From Gammaproteobacteria bacterium (GTDB lineage: Bacteria; Pseudomonadota; Gammaproteobacteria; Xanthomonadales; Wenzhouxiangellaceae): DNA of 33,150 bases. Numbering within the stretch: position 1 is the stretch's first letter; every line of letters begins with the position of its first letter. Position numbers and translations under genes: made by a program. Shown here in pieces: positions 25,217-26,104 of this stretch. The notes beneath the pieces were generated by a model that saw only the letters and a program-made list of their open reading frames with translations, ran no database searches and was not told the DNA's origin. The stretch is from NCBI GenBank assembly GCA_021772955.1, contig JAJFKZ010000073.1, positions 1-33,150 of the forward strand, given 5' to 3'.

Positions 25217-25432
25217 CCGTCTTTACCTCGTTTGCCTGATGAAAATATCGCTGGGAATGGAACCAGTCTATAGGATCTGTGCATTGGATGTGCAATGGAT
25301 GGAACAGTTCCCATGACCATACTGGTGTGGACCATTGGACCATGACACCAGCTTTTGCGTCGATCACCTGGGCCAGTTTGCCATACTGAATTAAGCCATA
25401 CTGAATTAACCAGGGGGAGGGGGTTGTTTAAG

Positions 25433-25523
25433 TGGCGGAGAGGGAGGGATTCGAACCCCCGGAAGGCTACAAACCTTCAACGGTTTTCAAGACCGCCGCA
25501 TTAAACCGCTCTGCCACCTCTCC
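25433..25523 (-). tRNA. tRNA-Ser (anticodon TGA)
   Basis: Minus strand GGAGAGGTGGCAGAGCGGTTTAATGCGGCGGTCTTGAAAACCGTTGAAGGTTTGTAGCCTTCCGGGGGTTCGAATCCCTCCCTCTCCGCCA. Acceptor stem GGAGAGG/CCTCTCC, long variable arm, encoded CCA. Confidence 0.97.
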
Positions 25524-25601
25524 GCGAAACTGCATTGTATCTGATCTTCCGATCGCTTCACCATGCCGTTGAGGCATGTTGAACCGATTTTCAACGGTTT
25601 T

Positions 25602-25751
25602 GACTCGCGACGTCCTGTCGCTCGCCCTACGGGCACCCCTTTTGGGTGTCCAGCTCGGCGGTCCTGCCGAACTGAAGACTCGCGACGTCCTGTCGCTCGC
25701 CCTACGGGCACCCCTTTTGGGTGTCCAGCTCGGCAATCCTGCCGAACTGCG
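25602..25751. repeat. Two tandem 75-bp hairpin-rich units
   Basis: Unit 25602-25676 and unit 25677-25751, differing at 4 positions (gg/aa and aa/cg). Each contains several short palindromes (gcgacgtcctgtcgc, gccctacgggc, cacccttttgggtg, ctcggc..tcctgccgaa). Confidence 0.93.
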
Positions 25752-25799
25752 CAAGACCGCCGCATTAAACCGCTCTGCCACCTCTCCGCGAAACTGCAT
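25752..25799 (-). pseudogene. Partial duplicate of tRNA-Ser(TGA): 5' leader plus 5' half to the anticodon
   Basis: 48 bp identical to 25488-25535 (caagaccgccgcattaaaccgctctgccacctctccgcgaaactgcat). The next 12 tRNA bases (ttcaacggtttt, 25476-25487) recur at 25590-25601 on the other side of the tandem repeat. Confidence 0.9.
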
Positions 25800-26104
25800 C
25801 CGCTGGTCGTGTTGCCAGCGTGAAGCTGCTAATTGTAGCTGAGCAGCGATGATCCGGGCAAGTCCAATTTACACATCCAGATCGGATGGCGGGCCAAATT
25901 CGAAGCCGCACCTGGGCATCTCGCAGGGCCAGTTGAGCGCTGTCGTGACAACGCCGTTGCGCTCAAGCAGGGTGACCTAACCCGGCGTTGCTGGCTGTCG
26001 TGTTAGGCTTTAGCTGAAAAAGTGCCTCATAAATAGACAGCAGTCGTGTGATGGTTTGGTGTTGGATGCGGTCTGTGATAGCTGTCAATACTCGGAAACA
26101 CATT

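Follow-up and report, generated by a model that had tools for sequence, protein, structure and literature searches.

A tRNA-Ser copy that is split at its anticodon by a tandem hairpin repeat, found in the 33,150-nucleotide stretch of DNA analysed here (the window), is real and belongs to a class-wide family of tRNA-hosted RNA elements that are related in layout to the tRNA-linked repeats (TLRs) of E. coli. The original prediction, made from this stretch alone, was of a tRNA-Ser duplicate interrupted at the anticodon by exactly two 75-bp units, and its coordinates and identities proved right in every detail. Comparisons with relatives establish this family and how widely it occurs, a fold backed by covariation, junctions in tRNA loops, and a strong excess of GGA in the first and last hairpin loops.

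On the minus strand, the broken copy is identical over 48 of 48 bp to the intact tRNA-Ser locus (25752-25799 against 25488-25535). This stretch comprises the leader ATGCAGTTTCGC and bases 1-36 of tRNA-Ser(UGA), terminating in GGTCTTG. It is followed by two 75-bp units in tandem (25602-25751; TRF period 75, 97% match), as assembled in a fragmented MAG, and then by AAAACCGTTGAA at 25590-25601, the same letters as 25476-25487 in the intact gene. The interruption separates the last anticodon base from the first two (the cut is between 35 and 36 in standard numbering), and the copy has neither V-arm nor T-arm. The intact tRNA-Ser gene is uninterrupted and has the same orientation as the adjoining repeat array (Table 1). 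A tRNA intron or group I intron was rejected because the interrupted copy, with its V-arm and T-arm missing, is incomplete, and the open reading frames spanning the array (110, 92, 88 and 86 aa) are without support. The promoter scan found one promoter-like site against 0.2 expected in shuffles (25832-25861); it did not call the box GATACAAT in the spacer. Just 3' of the intact tRNA gene lies a perfect 15-bp tandem duplication, GCCATACTGAATTAA in 2 copies (25380-25409). In searches against phages and plasmids the listed matches were to the tRNA parts of the query, with none to the element itself.

Table 1. Features of the tRNA-Ser locus in the window.
Feature	Position	Strand	Score or remark
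Promoter-like site TTGCCC-18-TACAAT, 5' of the broken copy	25832..25861	-	consensus match only
tRNA-Ser(UGA) leader and 5' half (bases 1-36), identical to the intact gene	25752..25799	-	
75-bp unit 1, four hairpins	25677..25751	-	80.8 bits
Unit 1 GGA, first loop	25737-25739	-	
Unit 1 GGA, last loop	25688-25690	-	
75-bp unit 2, layout as unit 1	25602..25676	-	80.6 bits
Unit 2 GGA, first loop	25662-25664	-	
Unit 2 GGA, last loop	25613-25615	-	
AAAACCGTTGAA, anticodon-loop/stem continuation of the tRNA copy	25590..25601	-	
Spacer before the intact gene, 3' end GATACAAT (-10-like)	25534..25589	-	sequence only
Intact tRNA-Ser(UGA), anticodon TGA	25433..25523	-	58.3 bits to RF00005

The locus structure is neither chance nor an artefact of a single assembly. 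In G001, the sole congener in the genome set, three broken copies stand in tandem before an intact tRNA-Ser gene (contig C37, JAHJQV010000045.1), each interrupted by a single 78-bp unit at the point in the anticodon where the window copy is cut, and the distance to mfd is comparable at the two loci. Each unit of the G001 array has the -10-like box of the window spacer. Because three tandem copies occupy the same locus, copy number varies (three broken copies with one unit each, against one copy with two units in the window), and the arrangement is not an accident of one MAG; the assembly artefact that the original prediction had allowed for is set aside by the same junctions occurring three times in the congener. 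The broken halves match the intact gene of their own genome (the window reads GGTTTA, and the four G001 copies all read GGTCGA) and have therefore evolved in concert within each genome. Where the units of the window and of G001 differ, the second and third hairpins have changed on both sides of a pair.

The 75-bp unit is one example of a structured element that has four hairpins and shows strong covariation. RNAalifold on 11 units gave compensatory changes in 13 of 20 pairs. Across 89 distinct elements, pairing is kept in 92.8% of cells, and 444 cells are double-changed, compared with 140 +/- 11 when shuffled and at most 79 when slid, a contrast that is still large given that the alignment was fitted to the model and so favours it. 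The original prediction was right that a hairpin element lies within a tRNA copy and that the unit was duplicated later.

Reading the tRNA-Ser loci of 60 genomes (the window's own and relatives) for broken copies revealed structured inserts in the T-loop (GTTCGA/A, the slash marking the insertion point), the D-loop (TTGA/A and GTCGA/A) and the anticodon loop, in broken copies that stand 5' or 3' of intact genes. A covariance model built from 11 units, R1, matched 96 sites, spread over 26 of these 60 genomes and in many cases near tRNA-Ser, -Arg, -Gln, -Glu, -Phe or tmRNA genes. A tRNA or tmRNA gene was present in 28 of 60 loci of about 1 kb, against a chance expectation estimated at below 2% (about 50 tRNA genes per 3.5 Mb). 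A strict rule requiring both junctions (n = 90) assigned 28 inserts to the T-loop, 5 to the D-loop and 4 to the anticodon loop; further inserts, decayed on one side or bordering another unit, go uncounted, and the rule places the window's two units under 'other' because each abuts the other on one side. Some 20 elements, judged by eye, are dispersed without tRNA flanks. Anticodon-loop inserts occur elsewhere in G041/G051, in G286 (L300) and in an uncultured Xanthomonadales MAG (L158), where D-loop and anticodon-loop inserts are found together in one broken tRNA. No tRNA insert in antisense was seen among 144 matches. Since R1 had been trained on GGA loops, we built a further model, R3, in which the end loops are masked and T-loop flanks are included; it found elements in 106 of 276 sampled gammaproteobacterial genomes and 92 of 215 genera, hosted mostly in tRNA T-loops (TTCGA/A), with D- and anticodon loops also used. 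The original prediction was too cautious here: the insert is no local accident, with related elements in T-, D- or anticodon loops of partial tRNA copies across the order and class. Its refuting case, units in relatives with no tRNA fragments around them, holds only in part: some related elements are dispersed without tRNA flanks (L097-L103), but the congener locus keeps its tRNA context. A pattern match at L159 (ARRA01000001) lies inside a coding gene and looks like chance.

The window's own genome, G000, has further T-loop inserts on contigs C62 and C169, in a T-loop/3'-end form, and a second array at C150:9079-9363 (L055, 679-964), where a tRNA-Ser copy carries a D-loop element (GGTCGA/../ATGGGC). 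The second array has a period of 183 bp and runs to the contig end, and its intact tRNA gene probably falls in the assembly gap. An own-genome pattern containing ACANGGANGT skips the window units, which have ACAGGACGT there, and matched the C150 array through mismatches. Four dispersed related elements that are not in tRNA (L097-L100; C61, C154, C127 and C114) sit in a longer repeat with flanks TTTAACG[..]CCATGAAAAAGATCGG, and four near-identical dispersed copies outside tRNA in G001 (L101-L104; C18 and C30) are flanked by GCGACACGCAACGCGGCCTGCGCCG and AGATGACGGC. In G038 two element copies lie 3' of tmRNA (L145) with the repeated flank TATTCCCGCTGCGGGAGGA. The opening part of four downstream, rtT-type repeats (L057, L060, L128 and L129) is the tRNA 3' end in inverted and imperfect form, so that the repeat as a whole could close into one long stem. 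Elements also lie within about 1 kb of csrA in six genomes (G001:C30, G041:C112, G051:C450, G068:C104, G144:C38 and G174:C23), in several cases with a tRNA-Ser gene alongside.

GGA is the CsrA/RsmA motif, and the window array has four GGA in hairpin loops, the multiple GGA looked for in a sponge. Of 85 R1-type elements, 68 carry GGA in the first loop and 61 in the last, and 1 of 123 middle loops has it. Among distinct R3 elements in CsrA-positive genomes the counts are 65 of 82 (first), 59 of 82 (last) and 6 of 127 (middle). For these counts the Fisher p is about 5e-38, a descriptive value that treats related sequences as independent. The two GGA of an element are 33-72 nt apart (median 51). 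About one-fifth of the elements in CsrA-positive genomes, including all those seen in G050, have no GGA.

CsrA was found in 243 of the 276 class genomes, and the window's own genome has csrA (G000:C155). Within the window's family, CsrA-positive genomes come from its own genus and two others only (G000, G001, G003, G004 and G010). CsrA was not found in 31 genomes of four genera (G002, G005-G009 and G011-G035), three of them single-contig, and appears to have been lost in this whole clade. Elements of the CsrA-less clade have GGA in the first loop in 5 of 51 cases, in the last loop in 3 of 51 and in both in 0 of 51. A model of GGA-less elements, R2, detects elements in 27 of the 31 CsrA-less genomes and in 0 of 29 others, 28 of which are CsrA-positive; R2 was trained on GGA-less units, and what is informative is therefore how the genomes divide. 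On a tree of Mfd, from which the rows for G005, G006, G008 and G046 were ignored as a false cluster read in the wrong frame (an opposite-strand ORF), the CsrA-positive and CsrA-less groups are sister clades. The clade-wide switch in CsrA and GGA is therefore one evolutionary event and not many, a point against the proposed titration of CsrA. Elsewhere, CsrA was not found in G303 and G287, whose elements have no GGA; G210, a genus-mate of G303 that likewise lacks GGA, has only a divergent CsrA. G124 is mixed for GGA and is contaminated. The conservation of GGA loops and their correlation with CsrA, both absent from the original prediction, point to a function.

We consider that the locus is probably a 5'-sided TLR variant that hosts a mobile or formerly mobile element and would serve as a CsrA/RsmA decoy made together with the pre-tRNA. 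A sense-strand structured element of about 75 nt, hosted by the partial tRNA copy, would be transcribed with the pre-tRNA from the promoter-like site upstream, and RNase P would cut the array off at the tRNA 5' end. Once freed, the leader could bind and titrate CsrA/RsmA through its four GGA hairpins, of which each unit supplies two at a distance of about 50 nt, so that a rise in tRNA synthesis would lower free CsrA. Gene conversion or unequal crossing-over may keep the tRNA halves in step with the intact gene, and the number of units and arrays may drift. Extending this to the class is more tentative, and we put it at somewhat under an even chance: tRNA-hosted elements may act as decoys for CsrA/RsmA and so couple CsrA activity to the synthesis of stable RNA, with CsrA-less lineages having lost GGA and kept the elements. 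A host site in any tRNA loop, the anticodon loop included, and on either side of the gene, is a part of this wider proposal that we hold equally tentatively.

Several observations count against titration of CsrA. A CsrA-RNA predictor gives the 19 tRNA-operon TLRs of E. coli scores under 0.01, and CsrA phenotypes shifted only modestly when the rRNA-operon repeats RrA/B/F were deleted or overexpressed (PMC8144298). The distribution is also mixed: GGA is kept in G164 (5 elements) and G232 (1 element), where csrA was not found in fragmented assemblies, and some elements lie away from tRNA. If the GGA pattern does reflect CsrA binding, CsrA, which regulates globally at the post-transcriptional level, would be linked to tRNA synthesis by a widespread set of RNAs made along with tRNA, and the purpose of tRNA-linked repeats would have a possible answer. 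The CsrA-less clade with its GGA-less elements is a natural experiment that makes the idea testable.

It is unlikely that the repeat is a purely selfish palindromic mobile element, REP/RAYT- or IS200/IS605-like and moved as ssDNA, that inserts 3' of TTGA or TCGA. For such an element tRNA loops would be safe, motif-bearing targets, inserts would survive only in spare copies, and the GGA loops would be recognition signals for a transposase. The repeated insertion of a short hairpin sequence at TYGA/A-type sites in T-, D- and anticodon loops fits this explanation, as do two inserts in one broken tRNA (L053 and L158) and copies dispersed away from tRNA (L097-L103). However, the Y1 transposase (PF01797) was found neither in the window's MAG (88% complete) nor in the array-bearing G011, G013, G018, G024 and G041, the tRNA inserts are all in sense, and a transposase signal would not predict the loss of GGA alongside that of CsrA. 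We regard as still less probable an aid to tRNA processing or expression, in which the folded leader array would act as an attenuator or would adjust how the pre-tRNA folds, how stable it is or how RNase P/RNase E cleave it. The position of elements beside intact tRNA genes, always in sense, would suit this role, and recruitment of RNase E by the repeated 3' end has been suggested by Stenum et al. (PMC8144298), but it leaves unexplained why GGA is confined to the two end loops, how the GGA are spaced and why some copies are dispersed, and the elements vary freely in copy number and in whether they stand 5' or 3'. Functionless debris, left by a duplicated tRNA gene that took an insert and is now decaying, accords with a broken copy that has no T-arm and no apparent gene product, and is very improbable given the strong covariation, the conserved loops and the presence of elements in 92 of 215 sampled genera; the conserved structure already disfavoured it.

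TLRs have been known since 1978, and the repeats at E. coli tyrT (rtT) were reportedly described by Egan and Landy in 1978 and by Rudd in 1999. E. coli K-12 has 22 TLRs, whose hallmark is an 18-19 bp copy of a tRNA or 5S 3' end, and which, according to Stenum et al. (2021), had no known function before that work (PMC8144298). The window copy likewise lies beside a tRNA gene in the same orientation and has the rtT-type hairpin layout (models R1 and R3, covariation); it has no 18-19 bp 3'-end identity to an upstream tRNA or rRNA. Because it carries the 5' half, it falls outside the TLR definition and counts as a variant of TLRs that is 5'-sided and sits in the anticodon loop. The likeness to rtT that the original prediction drew is real, and calling it loose was too cautious. 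The tyrT repeat reads GGTTCGA/hairpin-hairpin-CCCGAAGGG-hairpin-GAGT/AATCCTTCCCCC, and its T-loop junction (GGTTCGA/element/AATCC) is of the kind found in most relatives of the window element. Both loci have tandem units beside a tRNA gene, a partial tRNA copy and an insert in a tRNA loop, and both inserts have four hairpins, CCC-GNA-GGG and a terminal hairpin, which is a shared layout and not proven homology. The window differs in its upstream position, 5' half, anticodon-loop break and two units per copy, and its units have GGA loops whereas the rtT insert has none.

The window gave no match to the Rfam family RtT (RF00391, cut-off 45 bits), for which the best relatives scored 35.4 and 26.4 bits. 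AaHKsRNA22 (RF02902) scored 27.4 bits on relatives, under its cut-off of 39.8; it shares the hairpin order and the motif GAGC..GCGA with the window unit, and differs in loci and hosts. REP/RAYT sequences are also small hairpin repeats, and the window unit has GTAG before its last hairpin; REP/RAYT lie in general intergenic regions, whereas window-type sites are often tRNA loops, with no Y1 transposase found. RsmX/Y/Z and CsrB/C, like the proposed role of the window array, would titrate CsrA/RsmA through several GGA hairpins, and are free-standing genes with their own promoter and terminator, unlike the array hosted in a tRNA copy. Rfam sponge families had no match in the window, and rsmX reached 36 bits on the relative L057, below its cut-off of 56. 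Arrc20 and Arrc21 of Pasteurellaceae are expressed RtT-family RNAs 5' of tRNA genes (PMC4986893) and thus resemble the window array in their place upstream; loci and hosts differ. RrA, RrB and RrF lie 3' of 5S rRNA between two terminators in the rRNA operons of E. coli and bind Hfq and CsrA (PMC8144298). CsrA binding was measured in vitro there, while for the window we infer it; these TLRs resemble the window array in having GGA loops, and are co-transcribed with a stable RNA, as is proposed for the window.
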